Source of the DNA: Curtobacterium sp. MCLR17_036
GTDB lineage: Bacteria; Actinomycetota; Actinomycetes; Actinomycetales; Microbacteriaceae
DNA length: 64,000 bases
Reading direction: 5' to 3'
Assembly: GCF_003234445.2 (NCBI RefSeq)
Contig: NZ_CP126269.1
Location: 2,914,001 to 2,978,000, forward strand
Below are positions 9,600 through 48,122 of the stretch, one piece after another. The notes beneath the pieces were generated by a model. That model saw only the letters and a program-made list of their open reading frames with translations. It was not told the DNA's origin and made no database searches. The translations under genes and the position numbers were made by a program. Each line of letters starts with the position of its first letter. Within the stretch, counting starts at the first letter, position 1.

Positions 9600-10398
9600 C
9601 GTCCGTCCCCGGGCCGAGCGCCGGCGGCCAGACGGCGTCCGGACGCTCCGAGCACCGCGCGCGGATCCACCCCTTCACGAAGGCGATCGACACCAGCGCG
9701 GTCCGGTTCGGCGCCTTCCACGTCCGCATGAGCCGTCCGAGGTGCCACGCCACCGCCTGCCGGCTGTACGAGGTCTCGCGCGCGATCGCGTCGTTCGACA
9801 GACCGTGGGCCGCGAGCGCCAGCATCCGCTCCTCGGTGTCGTCGAGACCGGGCGCCTCGGCGACCAGGTCGATCTCCCCCGTCGTCACCGTCGCCGACGC
9901 GTCGGCCGCGGCCCGCCGACGCTGGTGCGACCAGGACTCGGCCCAGCACGAGCCGAGCTCGTGGGCCACCAGCGACGCCCGGCTCATCGCGAGCATGGTC
10001 CGCGCGGCACGGTCCGCCGTGGCCGCGTGGTCGCGCGTCGCCGTGTGCATGACGAGGGCGAAGACCCGGATCGCGGGCAGCGCCCCGCGGAGCACCACCG
10101 AGACGTCCACCCGCGGGTCCTCGGCCCGTGCGGCGGCGACCTCGCGCAGCCGTGCCAGGCAGTCGCGGTCGACGGGCTCACCGCGCTCGACGGCCCGCAG
10201 CGCCGCAGGCAGCACGATCGGGACGATCTCGGCGTAGCGCTGCCGGAGCCAGTCGTGGCCGTCCGGCCGGATGCCGTGCAGCGGTGGTGCGAGCAGGAGC
10301 GCCTCGAACTCGGCGCACCGCTCGTCGAGCGACAGCCCCAGCAGTTCCCCCGGGAGCAGCACTGCCGATCGGTGTGCGTCATCGCGCTCGGTCGTCAT
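9580..10398 (-). CDS. LuxR-type HTH transcriptional regulator (orphan)
   Basis: A 272-residue protein with a C-terminal GerE/LuxR-type HTH (ERMLALAAHGLSNDAIARE, then YSRQAVAWHLGRLMRTWKA, about residues 190-245). The N-terminal 180 residues are mostly helical with no receiver, PAS or ATPase domain recognised. The start MTTERDD at 10398 is preferred over upstream starts whose translation is Arg-rich and improbable. It is convergent with the secreted-protein gene and divergent from gltB. With no receiver domain it may sense a ligand directly or act constitutively. Possible targets are the neighbouring secreted protein or gltB, but nothing in the sequence proves this. Confidence 0.85.
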   Translation of the reverse strand: MTTERDDAHRSAVLLPGELLGLSLDERCAEFEALLLAPPLHGIRPDGHDWLRQRYAEIVPIVLPAALRAVERGEPVDRDCLARLREVAAARAEDPRVDVSVVLRGALPAIRVFALVMHTATRDHAATADRAARTMLAMSRASLVAHELGSCWAESWSHQRRRAAADASATVTTGEIDLVAEAPGLDDTEERMLALAAHGLSNDAIARETSYSRQAVAWHLGRLMRTWKAPNRTALVSIAFVKGWIRARCSERPDAVWPPALGPGTDAHDDGP

Positions 10399-10559
10399 CG
10401 TGCGTCGAACGTATCCGTGCAACACGTGTCGTGTTCGCTCGTTCACCAGGAGTTCGCCGCGGCGGGGTGCCGCCCGGCGCGCACAGCCCGCGACGCACCC
10501 CACCCACGCCCCGCACGCCACCCGCACGCGCCCCGCACGCCACCCGTCCGGCCGGTCTG

Positions 10560-10589
10560 TTGCGGCCGCGGTATACCAAGCCGTAGCAT
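10560..10589 (+). promoter_or_regulatory. Candidate promoter of the gltB operon
   Basis: TTGCGG (10560-10565) and TAGCAT (10584-10589), 18 bp apart, resemble vegetative -35/-10 boxes; they lie about 70 bp before the chosen gltB start. The match to consensus is moderate. The preceding 150 bp hold imperfect direct repeats of CGCCCCGCACGCCACCCG. Confidence 0.35.
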
Positions 10590-10660
10590 CGCCCTACCGC
10601 ACCACCACCCCACAGGGCCCGACTGCCACCACCGGTCTGCCCGCGGCGAGCGCTCCACCG

Positions 10661-13600
10661 ATGCAGCCCGCGCCGTCCGCTGCCGGCAACGCCCCTCTGG
10701 ACCCTCCCGTGAACCCCACCTCCTTCGGTCTCTACGACCCTGCCCGCGAGTCGAGCGACTGCGGCGTCGGTTTCATCACCCGTCTCGACGGGACGCCGAG
10801 CCACGACGTCATCCGCAAGGGCGACGAAGCGCTGTGCTCCATCCCGCACCGCGGCGGCAAGTCCGCCGAGGGCGTCGGCGACGGCGCGGGCGTCAGCATC
10901 GACCTGTCGGTGGAGTTCTTCAGCGCGATCACCGGCGAGCAGCTGCGCGCGGGCCACTTCGGCGTCGCGAACTGCTTCGTGCCGAGCGGCGCAGGCGCGA
11001 CGGCGGACGCCGAGCGCGCCCGTGCGCAGCAGACCGTCACGGACGCCATCGAGCAGCAGGGCTTCGAGCTCCTGCTCGTCCGTGACGTGCCGGTGGACCA
11101 CTCGGTCGCCCGGCCCGAGGCCGAGCAGTACCAGCTGCCGATCGTGCAGTGGGTCTTCCGCGCGCCCGAGTCGTGGAAGCGCACCGAGGTCGACGCCGCC
11201 GCGAACCGCGCCCTGCTCGCGATCGAGGCGGTGTCGTACGGCGAGGCCGCAGCCGAGCACGCCGACCACGCCGCCCTGTACCCGCTGTCGCTCAGCGCGC
11301 GGACACAGATCCTGAAGGGCCGGCTGAACTCCGGCGAGGTGATCGGGTACTTCACCGACCTGCGCGACCCCCGGCACTCGGTGCGGACGCTCTACTTCCA
11401 CACCCGGTTCTCGACGAACACCGAGCCGCACCCGACGATGGCGCAGCCGTTCCGCCTGATGGCGCACAACGGCGAGCTGAACACCGACCGGAAGAACCGC
11501 CTGTCCGACGAGGCGCTCGCGCGCGCCCGCACCCGGAGCATCGTGCGCCCGCCCGGGCAGTCGGACTCGAGCCGACTCGACCAGACCCTGCAGAGCCGCG
11601 TGTTCGACGACGGGCTCGAGATCGTCGAGGCCGTGGTGTCGCTCATGCCGCCGGCGTGGGAGAACGACCGCACGCTGACCCCGGACGTCCGGGACATGCT
11701 CGAGTACTTCTCGCTGTACGAGGAGAAGAACGACGGCCCCGCGGCCGTGATCTTCAGCGACGGCGACGTCGTCGGCGCGCGCCTGGACCGCCTGGGGCTG
11801 CGCCCGCTGCGCACCACCGAGACGGCCGAGTACCTGATGGTGGCGTCCGAGGCCGGCCAGGTCGAGTTCGACGCCGACGAGGTCGTGCACCGCGGCCGCA
11901 TCGAGGCCGGCGGCATGCTCGTCGTCGACCACCGCACCGGCACCCGCATGCGCACGGGCGAGGTGCTGCACATGCTCGCGGCCCGCCGTGACTACGGCGC
12001 CCTGCTCGACGCCGCCCGCGTGCACCTGGACGACGTGCCCGCTCCGGACTACGAGCGCACGACGTCCACCCTGGGCTACGACGGCGACCTGTCGCTCGCG
12101 GGCCGGTACGTGGCGTACTCGCTGAACCAGGAGAGCTTCCGGTTCATGCTCGACCCGATGCTGCAGAACGGGTCGGAGCGCATCTCGGCGATGGGCTACG
12201 GCAACGCGATCAACGCCCTGAGCGACACCGAGGGCGGCATGGCGAAGTACTTCTCGCAGCGCTTCGCCCAGGTGACGAACCCGCCGCTCGACTCGATCCG
12301 CGAGGCCGACGGCATGTCGATGCGCGTCGCACTGGGCGCGAAGCTGGACAGCACCGCGCCGGACGGCTCGGGTTCGACGAGCCGACAGCTCGTCGTGCAG
12401 TCCCCGATCCTCGGCCACCTGGACATGGTGCGGCTGCGCGAGCAGGACGTCGTGCCGCTCGAGCGCTTCGACATGCTCTACGTGCCGGTGCCCGACGACG
12501 AGCAGGCGAACGCCGACGCGGTGCGGACCGCGGTCGAGCAGCTCGCCGACGCGGTCGCGTCCTTCGCGGCGACGACCGGCGGCATCGCCGTGGTCAGCGA
12601 CCGCGCGGTGTCGTCGACCCGTGCGCCCCTCCCCGTGATCCTGGCCGTGGCCGCCGTCAACCAGCGGCTCATCGAGACCGGTCTGCGCCTGCGGGTGTCG
12701 GTCGTGGCGGAGAGCGGTCAGCTGCCGTCGTCACACCACGTCGCGACCGCGCTCGGCTTCGGTGCCGCCGCCGTGTACAGCCTGAGCGCGCGCCTGCGTG
12801 CGGAGGAGAAGTACCCCGCCGCACCCGCGCCCGCCGGCGAGCTGACCGCGACCGACCTGGCGCTCAAGCGGTTCCGCAAGGCCGCCGAGAAGGCCCTGGC
12901 GAAGACCATGGGCCGTGTCGGCCTGTGCACCGCCGAGAGCTACATCGGTGGCGAGTTCTTCGAGCCGAACTACCTCGACACCGGCGACGACGTGCTCGCG
13001 CGGATCTTCCCGCACATGCAGGCACCGGTCGGCGGCGTCGGCTTCGCGCGCATCGCCCAGGCGGCGACGGACTGGCACGAGCGTGCCCGCTCGGTGGCGT
13101 CCGAGGGCCAGGTCCCGCTGCTCGGGCTGTTCAAGGAACGCTCCGACGGCGCCGGCCACTCGTTCGGCGTCGCGAGCGTCCGCGCGTTCGGCGGCATGAC
13201 CGAGGAGCGCCCGGCCTTCGAGCGCTCCGGCGACTCGGACGCGCTGCGCCTGCTCACGCTCGGCCAGCTCGACGACTCGTTCGGCATCACCGACGCCGCG
13301 TACCGGAACACCGGGTACGACCGGCTGAGCGACGCCGAGATCGACGCGCACCGCATCACGCCGGGCTACGTCACGTTCCTGCAGACGACCCACGACGAGC
13401 GGTCCCGTCGTCCCGCCGCGCTCCGCGACGTGCTCGCGCTGCCCGCGGACGTCACCGGCATCGACACGGCAGAGGACTTCGCCCGCGAGCTCGGTCGCTT
13501 CTCGACGAGCGGCAACGCCAGCGTCACCGTGCGCGGGCTCTCCGGCTCGCGTCCGGCGTCCCCCGACGGTCTCCCTGGGCCCACGCCGCCGGTTCCGGAC

Positions 13601-16351
13601 CGCCGCGCCAGCGGCGGGTCGGCCGTGCCGGTGGGGAGAGGCACGGAGCGGTTCTGCCTGGAGCTCACGTCGACGGGACCCACGGGCGCACTGCGCCACC
13701 AGGCCCTCGCGGACGGCCTCGCGCTGCTCCACCCGGGGCAGATCGACGTCGACGCCGTCGACGACACCCAGGTGACGCTCCGCGCCACCGGTGCGGCCGT
13801 CGCCCTGCTCGCGTTGCTGCAGAGCGCCCCGGCGAGCGTCGAGCTCGACGAGGTCCAGCCGGCCCACGAGATCACCCGGACCCTGGCGTCCGGCGCGATG
13901 AGCCACGGTGCCCTCGTCGCCACCGCGCACGAGGCCGTGGCGCACGGCACGAACATGGTCGGCGGCATGTCGAACAGCGGTGAGGGCGGCGAGCACCACT
14001 CCCGCTACGGCACGATCCGCGGCTCGCGCATCAAGCAGTTCGCCTCGGGCCGGTTCGGCATCTGGGCCGGCTACCTCGCCGACCCGATGCTCGAGGAGCT
14101 CGAGATCAAGATCGGCCAGGGCGCGAAGCCCGGCGAGGGCGGGCAGCTGCCCGCACCCAAGGTCACGGTGGACATCGCCGCGGCCCGCGGTGGCACGCCC
14201 GGCGTCGAGCTCATCTCGCCGCCGCCGCACCACGACACGTACTCGATCGAGGACCTCGCGCAGCTCATCCACGACTGCAAGGCCGCCCGCGTCCGGGTCA
14301 TCGTGAAGCTCGTGTCGTCCGAGGGCATCGGCACCATCGCGGTCGGTGTCGCGAAGGCCGGTGCCGACGTCATCAACGTCGCCGGCAACACCGGCGGCAC
14401 CGGCGCCGCGGCCGTCACGAGCCTGAAGTACGCCGGACGCTCCGCGGAGATCGGCGTCGCCGAGGTGCACCAGGCCCTCGTCGCGAACGGCCTGCGCCAG
14501 AAGGTCACGCTCCGCTGCTCGGGTGCGCACCAGACCGGCAGCGACGTCGTCACGAGCGCCCTGCTCGGCGGGGACTCGTTCGAGTTCGGCACCACCGCGC
14601 TCATGATGCTCGGCTGCGTGATGGCGAAGAACTGCAACGTGAAGTGCCCGGCGGGCCTGACCACGAACGCCGAGGCGTTCGAGGGCGACCCCCGCGCGCT
14701 CGCGCAGTACCTGCTCAACATCGCCCACGACGTGCGGCAGATCCTGGCCCGTCTCGGCCTGCGCTCCCTGCGCGAAGCCCGCGGCCGGACCGACCTGCTG
14801 CAGCTCCTCGACCACCCGGCGAGCGTCGGCCGGCTCGACGCCCGTGCCCTGCTCGCCCAGGTGCCCGAGAAGGTCGTCACCGACCCGGAGTACCTGGAGA
14901 AGGACTACCGCACCGACGACGCGCTCATCGAGCGCGTCCGGGCGGCACTGGTCGACGGGCACGAGCACGCCGTGGTGATCGACGACGTGGTCCTCGGCAA
15001 CGCGGACAAGTCGGTCGGCGGCCAGCTCGGCATCGACGTCGAGCGCCTGCTCAACCACGAGCTGCGCGACGCCGACCTGTCGGCACACCCCGCCGTCGCC
15101 ACCGACGACCGCGGCCGCCGCCGGCTGGTGGACGGCGCGGTCACGATCCGCACGCACGGCTCGGCCGGGCAGTCGTACGGCGTCTTCACCAACGACGGCA
15201 TCGTGCTCGAGCACACCGGCACCGCCAACGACGGCGTCGGCAAGAGCCAGAGCGGGGGCCGGATCGTCGTCCGGGCGCCCGGCGGCGGCAGCGCCGAGCG
15301 CGGCGGCAACGTGCTCGTCGGCAACTTCGCACTGTTCGGCGCGACCGGCGGCCGCACCTTCGTGCAGGGCGAGGCCGGCGACCGGTTCGCCGTCCGGAAC
15401 TCCGGGGCCACCGCGGTGGTCGAGGGCGTCGGTGACTTCGGCTGCGAGTACATGACCGGCGGGGCCGTGTTCAACCTCGGCGCCTTCGGCAAGGGCCTCG
15501 GCAACGGCATGTCCGGTGGGTTCCTGTACCAGTACGACCCGACCGGCCAGGTCGCCGAGCGCGCCAGCACGGACTCGCTCCTGGTGTTCCCCGTCACCGA
15601 CACCGAGCGCGGTGCGTTCCACGAGGACGCCGCCCGCCTGCTGCTCGAGTGGCACCTCGAGGCCACCGGCTCGACCCTCGCCGAGCGGCTGCTCGCCGCG
15701 TGGGAGACCACCCGCGCGCACGTGTACGTCGGCATGCCGCGGGCGCTCCTGCTCAGCCAGGACGCCGACGCGATCCTCGCCGGCGCGACACGACCGGAGC
15801 TGCTCGACGAACTCGCGGCCTCCGTCGCGACGGACAAGCTCGGCGCCTTCAAGGTCGACTACCGCGACCAGCGCACCGTGCTCGACGGCCGCGCGCCCGC
15901 CCTCGGCGACCAGGGCGAGGACATGTTCTCGCTCCTGGCGTCGTACACCGTGCTCGGCGTCGCCCAGGACGTGGCGCAAGAGCGCGTACCCGGTGCCGGC
16001 GCCGGTGACCCGCGGGTGACCGAGGCGGTGCGGAACCTGGTGCTGACCGAGGACTTCGCCGTCAAGCAGCGCGTCGTGAAGTACCTGCGCGGCACGTTCG
16101 ACCGGTTCGCCGACGACGAGCTCGCGACGCTCATCGCGGTCAAGCGGCTCGACGACTCCAAGCGCGCCCTCACGCAGCGGAACAACCGCAGCATGGACGC
16201 GCCCGGCACGACGGGTTGGATCATGCACCAGAACGCGAAGAACGCCGGCCGGCTGCGTGCCGCGCGCTTCGACGAGCTGCTCGCGACCGCGGCGCTCGAG
16301 GACATCGCCCGCCGCGCACCGCAGGCGCCGACCGAGGCGGTGACCGCGTGA
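10661..16351 (+). CDS. gltB: GltB-like glutamate synthase large subunit, extended, with palindromic insert
   Basis: Makes two glutamates from glutamine and 2-oxoglutarate. In order: a short propeptide, the class-II glutaminase domain with catalytic Cys34 (SSDCGVGFI), then HTRFSTNTEPHPTMAQP and MAHNGELNTDRKNR; the central domain (FAQVTNPPLDSIREA); the FMN/synthase domain (SGAMSHGALV, MSNSGEGGEHHSRYG, GQGAKPGEGGQLP); a cluster motif Cys1319-x5-Cys1325-x3-Cys1329, where E. coli has x5 and x4; the GXGXG beta-helix; and an extra C-terminal segment of about 200 residues. Total length is about 1896, against roughly 1500 for standard GltB. A 74-bp element adds residues 972-997. Two starts are possible, ATG 10661 or GTG 10709; the latter gives a more typical propeptide. 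No gltD follows; instead a diflavin reductase begins in a GTGA overlap. Confidence 0.93.
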   Translation: MQPAPSAAGNAPLDPPVNPTSFGLYDPARESSDCGVGFITRLDGTPSHDVIRKGDEALCSIPHRGGKSAEGVGDGAGVSIDLSVEFFSAITGEQLRAGHFGVANCFVPSGAGATADAERARAQQTVTDAIEQQGFELLLVRDVPVDHSVARPEAEQYQLPIVQWVFRAPESWKRTEVDAAANRALLAIEAVSYGEAAAEHADHAALYPLSLSARTQILKGRLNSGEVIGYFTDLRDPRHSVRTLYFHTRFSTNTEPHPTMAQPFRLMAHNGELNTDRKNRLSDEALARARTRSIVRPPGQSDSSRLDQTLQSRVFDDGLEIVEAVVSLMPPAWENDRTLTPDVRDMLEYFSLYEEKNDGPAAVIFSDGDVVGARLDRLGLRPLRTTETAEYLMVASEAGQVEFDADEVVHRGRIEAGGMLVVDHRTGTRMRTGEVLHMLAARRDYGALLDAARVHLDDVPAPDYERTTSTLGYDGDLSLAGRYVAYSLNQESFRFMLDPMLQNGSERISAMGYGNAINALSDTEGGMAKYFSQRFAQVTNPPLDSIREADGMSMRVALGAKLDSTAPDGSGSTSRQLVVQSPILGHLDMVRLREQDVVPLERFDMLYVPVPDDEQANADAVRTAVEQLADAVASFAATTGGIAVVSDRAVSSTRAPLPVILAVAAVNQRLIETGLRLRVSVVAESGQLPSSHHVATALGFGAAAVYSLSARLRAEEKYPAAPAPAGELTATDLALKRFRKAAEKALAKTMGRVGLCTAESYIGGEFFEPNYLDTGDDVLARIFPHMQAPVGGVGFARIAQAATDWHERARSVASEGQVPLLGLFKERSDGAGHSFGVASVRAFGGMTEERPAFERSGDSDALRLLTLGQLDDSFGITDAAYRNTGYDRLSDAEIDAHRITPGYVTFLQTTHDERSRRPAALRDVLALPADVTGIDTAEDFARELGRFSTSGNASVTVRGLSGSRPASPDGLPGPTPPVPDRRASGGSAVPVGRGTERFCLELTSTGPTGALRHQALADGLALLHPGQIDVDAVDDTQVTLRATGAAVALLALLQSAPASVELDEVQPAHEITRTLASGAMSHGALVATAHEAVAHGTNMVGGMSNSGEGGEHHSRYGTIRGSRIKQFASGRFGIWAGYLADPMLEELEIKIGQGAKPGEGGQLPAPKVTVDIAAARGGTPGVELISPPPHHDTYSIEDLAQLIHDCKAARVRVIVKLVSSEGIGTIAVGVAKAGADVINVAGNTGGTGAAAVTSLKYAGRSAEIGVAEVHQALVANGLRQKVTLRCSGAHQTGSDVVTSALLGGDSFEFGTTALMMLGCVMAKNCNVKCPAGLTTNAEAFEGDPRALAQYLLNIAHDVRQILARLGLRSLREARGRTDLLQLLDHPASVGRLDARALLAQVPEKVVTDPEYLEKDYRTDDALIERVRAALVDGHEHAVVIDDVVLGNADKSVGGQLGIDVERLLNHELRDADLSAHPAVATDDRGRRRLVDGAVTIRTHGSAGQSYGVFTNDGIVLEHTGTANDGVGKSQSGGRIVVRAPGGGSAERGGNVLVGNFALFGATGGRTFVQGEAGDRFAVRNSGATAVVEGVGDFGCEYMTGGAVFNLGAFGKGLGNGMSGGFLYQYDPTGQVAERASTDSLLVFPVTDTERGAFHEDAARLLLEWHLEATGSTLAERLLAAWETTRAHVYVGMPRALLLSQDADAILAGATRPELLDELAASVATDKLGAFKVDYRDQRTVLDGRAPALGDQGEDMFSLLASYTVLGVAQDVAQERVPGAGAGDPRVTEAVRNLVLTEDFAVKQRVVKYLRGTFDRFADDELATLIAVKRLDDSKRALTQRNNRSMDAPGTTGWIMHQNAKNAGRLRAARFDELLATAALEDIARRAPQAPTEAVTA
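13577..13650 (+). repeat. 74-bp palindromic element, copy A, in frame inside gltB
   Basis: This stretch matches 46835-46908 (opposite strand) at 69 of 74 positions with no gaps. It contains a hairpin CCGTGCC-N10-GGCACGG and a second, CCGCCG-N6-CGGCGG. It is read in the same frame in both hosts, giving GPTPPVPDRRASGGSAVPVG followed by RGTER here. The host protein is otherwise collinear with GltB on both sides, so it looks like an insertion tolerated in a surface loop before the synthase domain. Confidence 0.85.
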
Positions 16352-43276: not shown

Positions 43277-44245
43277 TCAGCGAGCCGCCGCGAGACGCGC
43301 CAGGCCCTCGTCGATCGTCACCGACGGCGTCCACCGCAGGTCGGCGCGGGTCCGACGCTGGTCGAACCAGTGCGCCGTCGACAGCTGCTCGGCCAGGAAC
43401 CGGGTCATCGGCGGTTCGTCCTGCCCGGGTCGGACCCGCCAGACGGCCTCGACGAGCGAGCCGGCGGCCCGCGCCACCACGGCCGGCACGTGCCACCGCG
43501 GTGCCGGCACGCCCGAGGCGATGCAGATTCCGGCGAGCAGGTCCGCGACGGGGCGCGGTTCGCCGTTCGTGACGACGTAGGCGTTCCCGTGCACCCGCTC
43601 GTCCGCCGCACGGTCGAGCGCGGCGACCATCGCGGACGCCGCGTTGTCGACGTAGAGGGTGTCGATGAGGGCTGCACCGGAGTCGAGCAGCGGCAGACGG
43701 CCGGCCCGTGCTCGTTCGACGATGCGCCCGACGAGCTGGGTGTCCCCCGGCCCCCACACCAGGTGCGGCCGGACCGCGACCACCGCGAACCCCGCCGCGT
43801 CGGCCCCGAGTGCGAGCAGTTCCGCGGCGGCCTTGGTCCGGGCGTAGTCGCCCCGGGCCCGGGTCGGTTCCGCGGGACCCGCACCGGCGCCGGTGAGCGA
43901 GCTGCCGGTGTGCGCGACCGACGGCGACGACACGAACACGAAGCGCTCGGCCCCGGCGGTGCGTGCCGCGTCGAGCAGCAGCCGGGTGCCGTCGACGTTG
44001 ACCCGCCCGAACTCGGCCGGGTCGCCCGCCAGGGACACCTTCGCGGCGAGGTGCACCACGGCGTGGACGCCGACGACGGCGCGCGACAGGGCCGCGGCGT
44101 CCGTCATCGTGCCGGCGACGTCCTGCACGCCGGCGACGCCGGACGGACGGCGCTGGAAGGTCCGGACCTCGTGCCCGGCGTCGCGAACGGCCGCGGCGGT
44201 CGCCCGGCCGAGGAACCCGCTCGCCCCGGTGACGAGCACCCTCAT
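43277..44245 (-). CDS. oleD: OleD, NADPH-dependent 2-alkyl-3-ketoacyl reductase
   Basis: A 322-residue short-chain dehydrogenase of the extended (epimerase) type. It starts MRVLVTGASGFLGRATAAAV (TGxxGxxG cofactor loop), has FVFVSSPSVAHTGSS and the catalytic YARTK (Tyr-x3-Lys), then RPHLVWGPGDTQLVGRIVER. In the olefin pathway OleD reduces the beta-keto acid from OleA to the beta-hydroxy acid. The ATG overlaps the oleBC stop (ATGA, 44242-44245). The family alone would be ambiguous; the OleA-OleBC context decides. Confidence 0.92.
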   Translation of the reverse strand: MRVLVTGASGFLGRATAAAVRDAGHEVRTFQRRPSGVAGVQDVAGTMTDAAALSRAVVGVHAVVHLAAKVSLAGDPAEFGRVNVDGTRLLLDAARTAGAERFVFVSSPSVAHTGSSLTGAGAGPAEPTRARGDYARTKAAAELLALGADAAGFAVVAVRPHLVWGPGDTQLVGRIVERARAGRLPLLDSGAALIDTLYVDNAASAMVAALDRAADERVHGNAYVVTNGEPRPVADLLAGICIASGVPAPRWHVPAVVARAAGSLVEAVWRVRPGQDEPPMTRFLAEQLSTAHWFDQRRTRADLRWTPSVTIDEGLARLAAAR

Positions 44246-47034
44246 GGTCGGACCATCCGCCCGCCGGCGAGGACCCGCTCCGCCCACCGCGAAAGCCGTG
44301 CGCGGTCGACCTTGGAGTTGTGCCGGATGTCCGTCGGCAGCACCGGGACCGTCAGCACCGCGGCGAGCGGCACACCGGCGGCGGCACGCACTGCCGCGGC
44401 CAGCGCGGGCTCGGCGAGCGCGGGTCCGGTGAGCGCGGCGCGGCGGGACCGGCGGCCGGCGCCGGAGCGCTCGACCACGGCCACGACCTGCTGGGTGCCG
44501 CGCGGCCCGATGCCGGCGACCCCGGCGCGCCCGACACCGCTGACCGACTCGATGCGCTGCTCCGGCCCGACCGGCGTCACGACGCCGTCGGCCGTGGTGA
44601 GCACGTGCTGCAGTCGTCCCTCGACCCAGAGCCGGCCCGACCCGTCGAGGTGGCCGACGTCGCCGGTGCGGTGCCCGCGCGGGTCCGCGACGCCGAGCCG
44701 CGCGGTCCGGTTCGTCCGCCACAACCGGTCGTACCGGTCGCGGACGTGGGGCGCCGCGACGACGATCTCGCCGGTGATGCCGGGGTCGTCGGTCAGCGCA
44801 CCGGTCGGCAGGCCGTCGGCGTCGAGCGGCGCGATCCGGACGCGCACGTTCGCCGCGGGGACGCCGACGCAGATGCCCTCCTGCGCCGAGGCGGCGGCGG
44901 ACCGCACCCCGTCCAGGTCGACGTCCGTCATGAGCAGGCCCTCGGTCATGCCGTAGGGCGTGTGCGCGCTCGCGTTCGGCATGAGCGCCGTCGCCGCGGC
45001 GAGCAGCGGCTCGGACACGGGTGCGCCGGCGGACAGGAACAACCGGACCCGTCCGAGCGCGCGGTGGTCGTCTTCGGTGAGCGCCGGCGCCGTCGCGACG
45101 ACGTTCGCCAGCGCGGCCGGCGACAGGAACACCACGGTCGCGTCCGCAGCGGCCACCGAGTCGGCGACGGCCCGGGCCGTCAGGGTCCGGGGAGCGGTGA
45201 CGTCCATGTCCGGGGCGACCGAGCGCGCGCCGAGGGCGGGGCCGAGCAGCGCGAAGGGGGCGAACCCCGCGACGAGTCCGGTGCCGACCCCGATGTCGTA
45301 CTGTGCCGCCAGGACGTCCCGCACCGCGCCGAGCTGCCCGTGCGTGTACACGACGCCCTTCGCGGGGCCGGTCGACCCCGAGGTGAAGAGCACCGCGGCG
45401 GGGGCTCCGGCGTCCGGTGCGGCCGGCAGCGTCGCGCCGCTCGCGAGCCGACGGGCACCGCGTCGCGCCACGTCGACCAGGGTGTGCTCGACGCGCAGCG
45501 CTCGCCGAGCGGGAGCCGGCAGCGCGACGGTCGCGATGCGCCGCCCCGGCCACCCGAGCGCACGGGCCGCTCCGAGTCCGGGCAGCGCGCCGATGATCCA
45601 GGCCGGCCGGGCGCCGCGCACCGCACGGGTCAGCCCGCGCAGTCCGAGCCCGGCGTCGGCGACGACGACGACCGCTCCGATGCGGACGCAGGCGTAGAGC
45701 ACCGCGGTCAGGTCGGCACCCGGTGTGACGAGCAGCGAGACACGGTCGCCGCTGCGGACGCCCAGGTCCGCGAGCCCGGCCGCGATCTCGTCGACGCGGC
45801 GGGCGAGCAGCCGCCACGAGACCGTGCGGGGCCCACCGGCCGCGGCCATCTCGACCAGGGCTGCGTCGTCGCTGTCGCGCAGCTCGTCGAGACGGCTCCA
45901 CAGCGGGCGGCTCGCGTCCGCGTGCTGGTCGGGGGCGGACGGGAGGCCCGGGGTGACGTCGTCGGGGACGCTCCCGTCCGGCAGGCGGTCACCCAGCCAG
46001 TCGAGCACCGTGCCGGCGACGTCGGCGTCGTCGGGCAGCAGGTGGCCGGCGCCCTCGAAGCGGTGCACGTCGGCGTGCGGCAGCCGGGCGGTGAGGTCGT
46101 CGAGGTAGCGCTCGAGGAACACCGGGTCGCGGGGTCCCCAGAGCAGCAGCGCCGGGACCTCGAGCGCGGCGACGCCCGCGGCGATCCGGTCGAGCTCGGC
46201 GGCGCTCCGGTGGTCCGCGTCGACGGGGATGTCGGCGACGAAGCCGCCGATGCCGCCGCGGCGGGCAGCTCCGCGGTAGGGCGCTCGGTACGCGTCGGCC
46301 ACGGCGCGCTCGAGCTTCGGGTGCGCGATGGCGAGGGTCGTCTCGAGGAACGCCGGCGTCACGACCGTGGCGCGGCCGAGCATGCCCGGCCCGAGTGCGA
46401 GGCGGAGGGGCGCCGGGATCGGCGCGTCGTCGGGCTGGTGCACGGCCGTGTTGCACGTGATCGCTGCCGCGAGGACCTCGGGGTGGTCGACGGCCCAGCC
46501 GAGCGACACGACCCCACCCCAGTCGTGGCCGAGCGTGACGACGGGGCCGGTCAGCCCGAGCTCGTCGGTCAGGGCGCCGAGGTCCGCGACGCGCTGCGCG
46601 AGCCCGCGCTCGACGCCGGTGCGCTCCGAGAAGCCCATGTCGAGCTGGTCGACGGCGACCACGCGCCAGGCCGGACCGCCCGCGCGGGCGGTCTCGAGCG
46701 AGGCGCGGAGCACCGCCCGCCACAGGTACGACCACGTCGGGTTGCCGTGCACGCACAGGATGGTGCCGACCGGCTCCACGCCGAGCGCGGCCAGGGACCC
46801 GGCCGTGTCGAGGAGGTGCCAGGTGCGCGCGGCGCGATCCGTGCCTCTCCCCACCGGCACGGCCGGCGCGCCGCTGGCGCGTCGCTCCGGAACCGGCGGC
46901 GTGGGCCCAGTCCGCTCTTCGGACCACTCGGGGACCGTGACCAAACGCGACCAGGCCGGGTCGAGACCGGGCAGGGAGGGCGGCTGCGTCGCCGGAGCGG
47001 TGCTCGCGGCGACGCGGGGCAGCCGCGACGTCAC
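44242..47034 (-). CDS. oleBC: OleBC fusion: beta-lactone decarboxylase plus beta-lactone synthetase
   Basis: A 930-residue two-enzyme fusion. The N-terminal alpha/beta hydrolase (about residues 70-370) is OleB-like: ILCVHGNPTWSYLWRAVLRA, nucleophile Asp171 in LGHDWGGVVSLGWAVDHPEV, and the His in FEGAGHLLPDDA. The C-terminal part (about 390-930) is an adenylate-forming OleC: VLFTSGSTGPAKGVVYTHG (about 549), YGMTEGLLMTDVDL, HRTGDVGHLD and IRHNSKVDRARLSRWA. OleC makes a beta-lactone that OleB decarboxylates to an alkene. Fused OleBC is known from actinobacteria. The GTG start overlaps the oleA stop. Residues 43-67 come from a 74-bp palindromic element, and a GGACGGGAG hairpin lies in the inter-domain linker. 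Confidence 0.94.
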   Translation of the reverse strand: MTSRLPRVAASTAPATQPPSLPGLDPAWSRLVTVPEWSEERTGPTPPVPERRASGAPAVPVGRGTDRAARTWHLLDTAGSLAALGVEPVGTILCVHGNPTWSYLWRAVLRASLETARAGGPAWRVVAVDQLDMGFSERTGVERGLAQRVADLGALTDELGLTGPVVTLGHDWGGVVSLGWAVDHPEVLAAAITCNTAVHQPDDAPIPAPLRLALGPGMLGRATVVTPAFLETTLAIAHPKLERAVADAYRAPYRGAARRGGIGGFVADIPVDADHRSAAELDRIAAGVAALEVPALLLWGPRDPVFLERYLDDLTARLPHADVHRFEGAGHLLPDDADVAGTVLDWLGDRLPDGSVPDDVTPGLPSAPDQHADASRPLWSRLDELRDSDDAALVEMAAAGGPRTVSWRLLARRVDEIAAGLADLGVRSGDRVSLLVTPGADLTAVLYACVRIGAVVVVADAGLGLRGLTRAVRGARPAWIIGALPGLGAARALGWPGRRIATVALPAPARRALRVEHTLVDVARRGARRLASGATLPAAPDAGAPAAVLFTSGSTGPAKGVVYTHGQLGAVRDVLAAQYDIGVGTGLVAGFAPFALLGPALGARSVAPDMDVTAPRTLTARAVADSVAAADATVVFLSPAALANVVATAPALTEDDHRALGRVRLFLSAGAPVSEPLLAAATALMPNASAHTPYGMTEGLLMTDVDLDGVRSAAASAQEGICVGVPAANVRVRIAPLDADGLPTGALTDDPGITGEIVVAAPHVRDRYDRLWRTNRTARLGVADPRGHRTGDVGHLDGSGRLWVEGRLQHVLTTADGVVTPVGPEQRIESVSGVGRAGVAGIGPRGTQQVVAVVERSGAGRRSRRAALTGPALAEPALAAAVRAAAGVPLAAVLTVPVLPTDIRHNSKVDRARLSRWAERVLAGGRMVRP
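45937..45979. repeat. GGACGGGAG palindrome in the OleB-OleC linker
   Basis: GGACGGGAG (45937-45945) pairs with CTCCCGTCC (45971-45979). The left arm with its flank, GGACGGGAGGCCCGG, is identical to the arm of the intergenic palindrome family. It codes for the linker around DGSVPDDVTPGLPSAPD. Chance cannot be excluded for so short a match. Confidence 0.45.
46835..46908 (-). repeat. 74-bp palindromic element, copy B, in frame inside oleBC
   Basis: Same element as 13577-13650, on the opposite strand, 69 of 74 identical without gaps. It is translated in the same frame, giving GPTPPVPERRASGAPAVPVG then RGTDR, just before the hydrolase domain. The hairpin CCGTGCC-N10-GGCACGG is conserved exactly, and a second hairpin (CGCGCC-AGC-GGCGCG) replaces the CCGCCG/CGGCGG one of copy A. 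Confidence 0.85.
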
Positions 47035-48122
47035 CAGTGCAGTTCCATCATCGCCGTGTTGATGCCCGAGCCGACGCCGCCGAGGAACACGCGGTCGCCG
47101 CGACGGATGCCGCCGGAGGCGACCTCGTCGGCCAGGGTGATCGGGATCGACGCGGGCCCGACGTTGCCGAAGCGCTGGTACGTGGTGGGGACCTTGTCGC
47201 GCGGGATGCCGATCGCCTCGACGAAGGCGTTGGTGTGCACGTCGGAGACCTGGTGCAGCACGTAGCGGTCCATGTTCGCCCAGTCGAAGTGGGCGCGGGC
47301 CTCGGTCCAGGCGGCGACGACGAGCTCCATGCCGCCCTTGAGCAGCATCTTCGCGTCCGTGAACATGCCGTCGACGCTGCCGACGCACAGGTCGTACCAC
47401 TGGGTCGCCGCACGGGTGACCCCGCCGATGATCCGGTGTCCTTCGGGGTGCAGGTCGGCCGGGCCGAGCACGGCGGCCGCGGCACCGGACCCGAGGGTCA
47501 AGCTCGCGAACTCGCTCATGAAGTCCTTGCGGTTCCGGCCGCCCTGGTTCAGGCGGTCGATCGTGTTGAGCTGCACCTGGTCGGCGTCCTCGCCGTCCAC
47601 CACCAGCGCGTACTTGATCTGCCCGGAGTCGATCATGCCGGCGGCGACGCTCATGGCGTTGACGAACCCGAGGCAGGCGTTCGCGATGTCGAAGTTGATC
47701 GCCGACGACGGCAGGCCGAGCCCGTGGTGCAACCGCACGGCGACACTCGGCTCCAGGTGCGGGCGCGTCACCGACGTGTTGATGAGCAGCCCGATCTCGT
47801 CGGGTCGGACACCGGCCTCGGCCATGGCGCGACGTCCGGCGTCGATCGCGGCGTCCTGGAAGGTCTGGTCCTCGCCCCAGTTGCGACGCTCGATGACCCC
47901 GGCCACACGCTCGAGCAACCCCATCGGCAGACGCAGGCGGCGGAGCACCCCGCGCAGGCGCTGCTCGATGTCCGCAGAGGTCGTCACGCGTTCGGCGGTG
48001 GTCGTCGCAACGGAGAGCAGCGACACGTTGTGGTGCTTCGCCGTGGCGTTGCCGGGCTGCTCGGGTTCGTTGCGCGGCGCTCGTCCACCGCTCACTGCCT
48101 GGTCGACCGGCCGTTCCGTCAT
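47031..48122 (-). CDS. oleA: OleA, acyl-CoA head-to-head condensing enzyme
   Basis: A 363-residue thiolase-superfamily enzyme (KAS III-like) that joins two fatty acyl-CoAs to a 2-alkyl-3-ketoacid in long-chain olefin synthesis. Features: GNATAKHHNVSLLSVATTTA at the start, LLINTSVTRPHLEPSVAVRL, catalytic Cys150 in FDIANACLGFVNAMS, His in MDRYVLHQVSDVHTNAF, and QRFGNVGPASIPITLADEV. The ATG 48122 is used; ATG 48149 would add nine residues. Neither has a strong ribosome site. It heads the operon oleA-oleBC-oleD. Confidence 0.94.
   Translation of the reverse strand: MTERPVDQAVSGGRAPRNEPEQPGNATAKHHNVSLLSVATTTAERVTTSADIEQRLRGVLRRLRLPMGLLERVAGVIERRNWGEDQTFQDAAIDAGRRAMAEAGVRPDEIGLLINTSVTRPHLEPSVAVRLHHGLGLPSSAINFDIANACLGFVNAMSVAAGMIDSGQIKYALVVDGEDADQVQLNTIDRLNQGGRNRKDFMSEFASLTLGSGAAAAVLGPADLHPEGHRIIGGVTRAATQWYDLCVGSVDGMFTDAKMLLKGGMELVVAAWTEARAHFDWANMDRYVLHQVSDVHTNAFVEAIGIPRDKVPTTYQRFGNVGPASIPITLADEVASGGIRRGDRVFLGGVGSGINTAMMELHW

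Follow-up and report, generated by a model that had tools for sequence, protein, structure and literature searches.

A recently mobile element of about 60 nucleotides with a predicted hairpin, sometimes inserted in frame into genes of Curtobacterium

Rickettsia palindromic elements (RPEs), for which no mobiliser is known to us, are among the described elements closest in behaviour to the one reported here. According to two articles, RPEs are palindromes lying in frame in unrelated genes, where the encoded peptide is tolerated (PMC10969869; PMC3733652), and their length is given as ~150 bp (PMC10969869). By its behaviour the Curtobacterium element can be said to work like an RPE, since it is palindromic, sits in frame in unrelated genes and adds a peptide that is tolerated; it differs in belonging to another phylum, in measuring ~60 nt instead of ~150 bp, in having a short target motif and in that a minority of its loci are coding. 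Cyanobacterial SDR elements, the subject of work by Elhai in 2008, are reportedly very short (21–27 nt), carry compensatory changes, insert into an over-represented motif and have moved recently. Set beside this description, the Curtobacterium element is similar in its compensatory inner-stem changes and its recent mobility and dissimilar in its greater length and its unrelated host group; a terminator-type target block has dozens of matches in 8 genomes, but in the window GGAGGCNCGG is near chance. It is with high probability a non-autonomous, structure-dependent mobile element of ~60 nt, presumably moved in trans and found here in Microbacteriaceae, and it adds an actinobacterial case to the short palindromes that enter genes in frame. 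Full-text searches, a light test of novelty in print, returned no paper that links elements of this kind to Curtobacterium or Microbacteriaceae, and no word starting with actinobacter occurs in the main text of a 2013 survey of REPs (PMC3733652).

The analysed stretch of DNA, called the window below, is 64,000 nt of a Curtobacterium genome (G000). A search of this genome with the 74-bp sequence on which the original prediction was built recovered the match between 13577–13650 (+) and 46835–46908 (−) at 69 of 74 positions (93% identity, no indel, E = 5.2e-26), and both copies are read in the same frame, giving GPTPPVP, RRASG and AVPVGRGT. The domains are consistent with the names given to the two host genes: the gltB ORF (10271–16351, +) encodes the large chain of glutamate synthase (Pfam GATase_2, Glu_syn_central, Glu_synthase and GXGXG), and the oleBC-like ORF (44242–47400, −; ORF list and Pfam) encodes a fusion of abhydrolase and AMP-binding domains. 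The 74 bp had been taken for the whole element, and this part had to be revised, as the final 13 bases (GAGGCACGGAGCG in gltB, GAGGCACGGATCG in oleBC) are target site and are present, identically or nearly so, at empty gltB and oleBC-like sites of other genomes.

An alignment of 41 copies together with empty sites placed the gltB copy at 13576–13637 (+; T-GGGCCCAC...GGTGGGG-A, 62 nt long and adding a net 60 bp), at about residues 1103–1123 of the product, and the copy in the oleBC-like gene at 46848–46909 (−), upstream of the abhydrolase domain. The conserved unit reads T-GGGCCCACGCCGCCGGTTCC...GGCCGTGCCGGTGGGG-A (~62 nt), and its ends form an imperfect terminal inversion (T..CCCAC / GTGGGGA). 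The right part of the gltB target, GAGGCACGG (13638–13646, +), is pre-insertion sequence that occurs in the empty gltB of the same species and exactly or nearly so in other empty gltB genes. On the oleBC side the target-derived right flank lies at 46835–46847 (−) and is known from empty orthologues, six of which (L204, L205, L210, L212, L214 and L215) read GAGG.AC.GATC at this place. The hairpin CCGTGCC/GGCACGG proposed for the 74 bp pairs an element half with a target half, and in this exact form it is missing from copies with the flank AGGCGCGG.

Filled and empty sites were compared across the 66 Curtobacterium genomes. An element-less gltB query gave a long match in 51 of them, and gltB was unbroken in 49, being interrupted just in this genome and in G004; 33 empty junctions were read (G031 and 32 others). 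The nearest empty gltB, 98% identical, is that of G031, which belongs to the same species, and the 49 empty genes argue against a deletion in G031 and for an insertion in this genome. In G004 the same gltB linker is interrupted, at a point nine bases further along and in the same frame, by what looks like an independent insertion. At the oleBC-like locus, seven other genomes were read, six of them empty, and in one (G041) the same linker holds a variant that is different and diverged. Of the nine loci of this genome, seven have no copy in G031 (gltB, GH92, the N-terminus of a transport permease and another four), and the remaining two, the oleBC-like gene and a terminator, are filled there. 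The element moves, as a genome of the same species is without seven of the nine copies, and the presence of empty and filled alleles within one species means that the insertions are recent.

The gain relative to G031 was 60, 60, 60, 59, 60, 60 and 60 bp at the seven sites. Five of the seven empty sites contain the motif C(G/T)GGAGGC, and the two deviants end in A (L003) or read TGGGGAGGC (L008); the typical filled form is C-TGGGCCC...GGTGGGGA-GAGGC. No target duplication longer than 2–3 bp was found at the seven same-species pairs, and a very short one would be indistinguishable because the element ends are G-rich. A flank logo of 67 loci (119 copies, five 67-column copies left out) agrees with the target motif and has a variable left junction base. 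In the window GGAGGCNCGG occurs 6 times against 3.35 expected, which is near chance.

These sites also bear on the reading that the segment is an immobile, conserved functional part of a protein or a regulatory RNA. One peptide frame does dominate among the coding copies, as such a reading would have it, but orthologues are empty within one species and across the genus and 50 of 63 loci were not called coding, so that it is scarcely credible; as a conserved protein part the segment is ruled out by the empty orthologues, and an ancient conserved segment is refuted by the 49 of 51 gltB genes without it, the same-species gltB among them. Rfam gave no match in the window at the gathering score. 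The spread of an in-frame, palindromic and protein-compatible sequence among unrelated genes, the core of the original prediction, is supported by the empty orthologues and by further copies.

What had been noticed as a two-copy feature is more abundant, with 9 clear copies in this genome (84–100% identity, whole-genome search). A covariance model built from the 41 copies returned the same 9 and 5 weaker matches (E up to 1). Two of the weaker matches, the diverged copies L052 and L054, overlap in tandem (G000:C1:3144168-3144285). The expectation of further copies in related genomes was borne out for most of them: at least one was found in 62 of the 66 Curtobacterium genomes, this one included. 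The sequence search of these 66 found no copy in G002, G027, G043 and G049, and in G043 the covariance model detected a weak one. With 14 candidates scored per genome in the genus, and 12–14 across both scans, the numbers of copies are minima. In a sample of the family (398 genomes, 85 genera), the structure model matched 59 genomes in 25 genera; 51 of the 59 lie outside Curtobacterium, many with a single weak match. In the order, a broader model matched 3 of 396 genomes, all Microbacteriaceae, the share of the 396 from outside the family not being given. In a peptide-pattern scan, four named loci were among the matches listed, all Curtobacterium, and one of them (L011) is an empty gltB. The element was found here in Microbacteriaceae alone, in Curtobacterium and other genera of the family.

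The consensus of the 41 copies, computed with RNAalifold, is predicted to fold into a single long imperfect hairpin spanning columns 6–62 (13580–13636, + in the gltB copy), within which columns 21–32 pair with 37–48 to form an inner stem-loop (13595–13622, +). For this inner stem, double changes affect six pairs in Curtobacterium (20 cells, with 5.0 in shuffles) and nine across the family (66 cells, with 19.8 in shuffles), related copies being non-independent in these cell counts; none of 500 shuffles reached any of the covariation measures. The outer stem is almost invariant between copies, and since it hardly varies, the covariation backs the inner stem alone. Wobble in the inner stem amounts to 20 G.T against 1 A.C, an asymmetry that points to the written strand (GGGCCCAC...GGTGGGG) as the folding strand. 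When four sequences were folded singly as DNA, their predicted stability did not clearly exceed that of shuffles, the edge being slight (z −1.22 for the gltB copy, −0.93 for its complement, −0.69 for the oleBC copy and −2.28 for L010). A sub-family with a longer inner hairpin, of the GGAGCCTGCGGAGC type, comprises L055, L250, L266–L268 and L272.

Coding context was assigned with a codon-usage test, which called 13 of 63 distinct loci (124 copies) coding; 13 is a low count, as the test misses the oleBC-like gene, L142 and the permease copy L004, and the 50 loci that were not called may include genic ones. The set of 63 keeps the 67-column copies and was clustered slightly more loosely, many of the 124 copies are the best-scoring listed matches and hence a non-random draw, and the context counts leave out loci outside Curtobacterium, L010, L012, L013 and the weak matches L052–L056. 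An earlier and looser call scored 23 of the 124 copies as coding and put 18 of these in the GPTPPVP frame. The likeness to RPEs that had been predicted stands for the in-frame, palindromic and intragenic copies and is limited by the 13 coding calls, which suggest an element chiefly of non-coding DNA, with an in-frame copy tolerated now and then.

The GPTPPVP frame is used at seven of the 13 loci called coding, gltB counted twice among them for its two insertions, compared with 5 of the 60 target-like motifs in coding DNA to which a frame could be assigned (Fisher p = 5e-4; 145 motifs in total, 85 without an assignable frame). Hosts in this frame include SAHH, GH92, Mur ligase and glutamate synthase, and those that carry it on the opposite strand include a TPP enzyme, a histidine kinase, an ABC ATPase and YjeF. 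The permease copy L004 (PF00528) is open in yet another frame (GPRRRFRRDAPAAGRPRRWGE), and its site is empty in G031. All six frames are free of stops in 99 of 119 copies, against 29% of random 68-mers from the window and 45% of shuffled consensus sequences, and with a net gain of 60 bp the reading frame is usually kept. In-frame tolerance is not universal, since at L036 and L150 the YGVSK motif of a short-chain dehydrogenase gene (adh_short) is closely followed by a copy that breaks the frame in both genomes. The gltB insert falls within residues 971–1189, a stretch that is unaligned to the best solved glutamate synthase. The oleBC-like gene at L035 (G013) carries one copy in the GPTPPVP frame and, further on, a diverged copy on the opposite strand, the latter left out of alignment A1. 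Insertions of this kind show a route by which proteins acquire linkers of 20 residues.

Surrounding palindromes were examined at 54 loci that the earlier, looser call had not scored as coding; at 19 the inverted repeat exceeds the 99th percentile for random positions, and 35 are outside strong inverted repeats. Many copies lie within terminator-like palindromes of the type GGACGGGAGGCGCGG, in one arm. A search of 8 Curtobacterium genomes with one such palindrome, that flanking L006 (CTGGAGGC...GCCTCC, query block 1330-1430), gave dozens of matches of 73–96% identity; judged by these matches it is a high-copy palindromic repeat, and it serves as a target of the element.

Short palindromes that lie mainly outside genes and sometimes within them recall GTAG/CGTC REPs and REPINs, which are described in the 2013 survey as mostly extragenic, with some copies in genes, and, for the CGTC type, as being without a dedicated transposase (PMC3733652). 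The many copies outside genes fit an element of the REP/REPIN type, for which the mover would be the tyrosine (Y1) transposase associated with REPs. The element differs from REPs in having no end tag and in preferring a motif; the consensus contains no GTAG or CGTC on the written strand, and GACG, the complement of CGTC, is inside the stem and away from the ends. PF01797, the Y1 transposase family, matched none of the 66 Curtobacterium genomes and 5 of 14 control genomes. With no Y1 transposase detected in any of the 66 at the sensitivity of Pfam, which a very divergent one might escape, this explanation was rejected and is very improbable. An integron attC-like site was dropped as well, no GTTRRRY-type box being seen.

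The element might also be a MITE, that is, a deletion derivative of an insertion sequence (e.g. IS110-like or serine-type) mobilised in trans by the transposase of its parent. It resembles MITEs in being non-autonomous, in its many copies and in lying near and within genes, its defined ends with their imperfect terminal inversion suit this origin, a duplication of 2–3 bp is possible, and the targeting of palindromes matches some insertion sequences found in REPs (PMC1525189). It departs from them in that the seven Curtobacterium sites have no longer duplication, in that the ends are not clear inverted repeats and in that no parent was found in 6 genomes. Among the ends compared by pattern in these 6 genomes, none belonged to a longer version of the element; 5' and 3' ends are mostly 44–45 bp apart, and the 14 stretches retrieved, for the most part around ends without a partner, contained short elements, of which some have an enlarged inner loop. 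Also against a MITE, phage and plasmid records gave no match at E 1e-5 and viral contigs none to two exact patterns, results for which carriage by phage, plasmid or virus was dropped. A MITE is a possible but rather unlikely source.

Loci near tRNA genes differ from those described so far. Among 25 loci tested (24 in other genera and 1 divergent Curtobacterium), a tRNA gene lies upstream in the fetched stretch in 8. Direct repeats on both sides (score at least 15) were present at 8 loci, namely seven of the eight tRNA-side loci and L080 (short stretch); none flank L063. The repeats are 15–151 bp long, five of them at least 54, and in four the left repeat ends no more than 7 bases from the element. 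The right flank mostly begins inside the T loop of the tRNA. The repeats may represent a long target duplication, a tandem duplication or the relic of a second tRNA gene, and they do not fit the duplication-free insertions of Curtobacterium, so that there are maybe two routes. A mixture of insertions with and without duplication recalls target-primed insertion.

A SINE-like RNA element, with target-primed reverse transcription as its mode of insertion, would agree with this mixture (direct repeats at some tRNA-side copies and almost none elsewhere), with the variable left junction base and with the strand-asymmetric tolerance of G.T pairs. The reverse transcriptase domain RVT_1 was found in 43 of the 66 genomes. 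At the RVT_1 loci L231–L234 the open frame often has 497 codons. Against this explanation, RVT_1 was not found in G000, G031, G010, G016, G055 and G062, all of which have 8–16 listed copies, the last four 14–16 each, and the median of listed copies is 9 without and 8 with RVT_1 (p = 0.59). The reverse transcriptase was set aside, having no association with listed copy number in the 66 genomes, and a SINE-like element is distinctly unlikely.

Y1 transposase and reverse transcriptase do not explain the movement. A further proposal, of less than even probability, is a recently active actinobacterial element of ~60 nt whose moving unit is the folded strand, which moves without either enzyme, enters hairpins of terminators and tRNA T loops through an undescribed enzyme and, with its usual length of 60 and few stop codons, writes linkers of 20 residues. 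On the main reading, the written strand would fold as RNA or single-stranded DNA, a trans-acting factor would recognise the fold, and the folded strand would be copied into exposed hairpins of terminators or tRNA ends. Genic copies would survive where 60 bp are frame-neutral and the GPTPPVP...VPVGRG frame adds a harmless, linker-like peptide, and selection would purge most other genic insertions. With target motif, junctions and structural requirements defined, the movement of such tiny elements becomes testable.

The tRNA-side loci also suggested a tRNA-derived origin, a possibility raised by their position. In genus g58 (9 genomes) the element lies behind tRNA-Ser in G364, G289 (two in tandem) and G418, and the 5' half of it in G190; G329, G122 and G393 have no element in the 520 bases shown. 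Different palindromes occupy the same place behind tRNA-Ser at L274 (G442) and L281 (G242), and next to the latter lies a copy of the 3' end of the tRNA.
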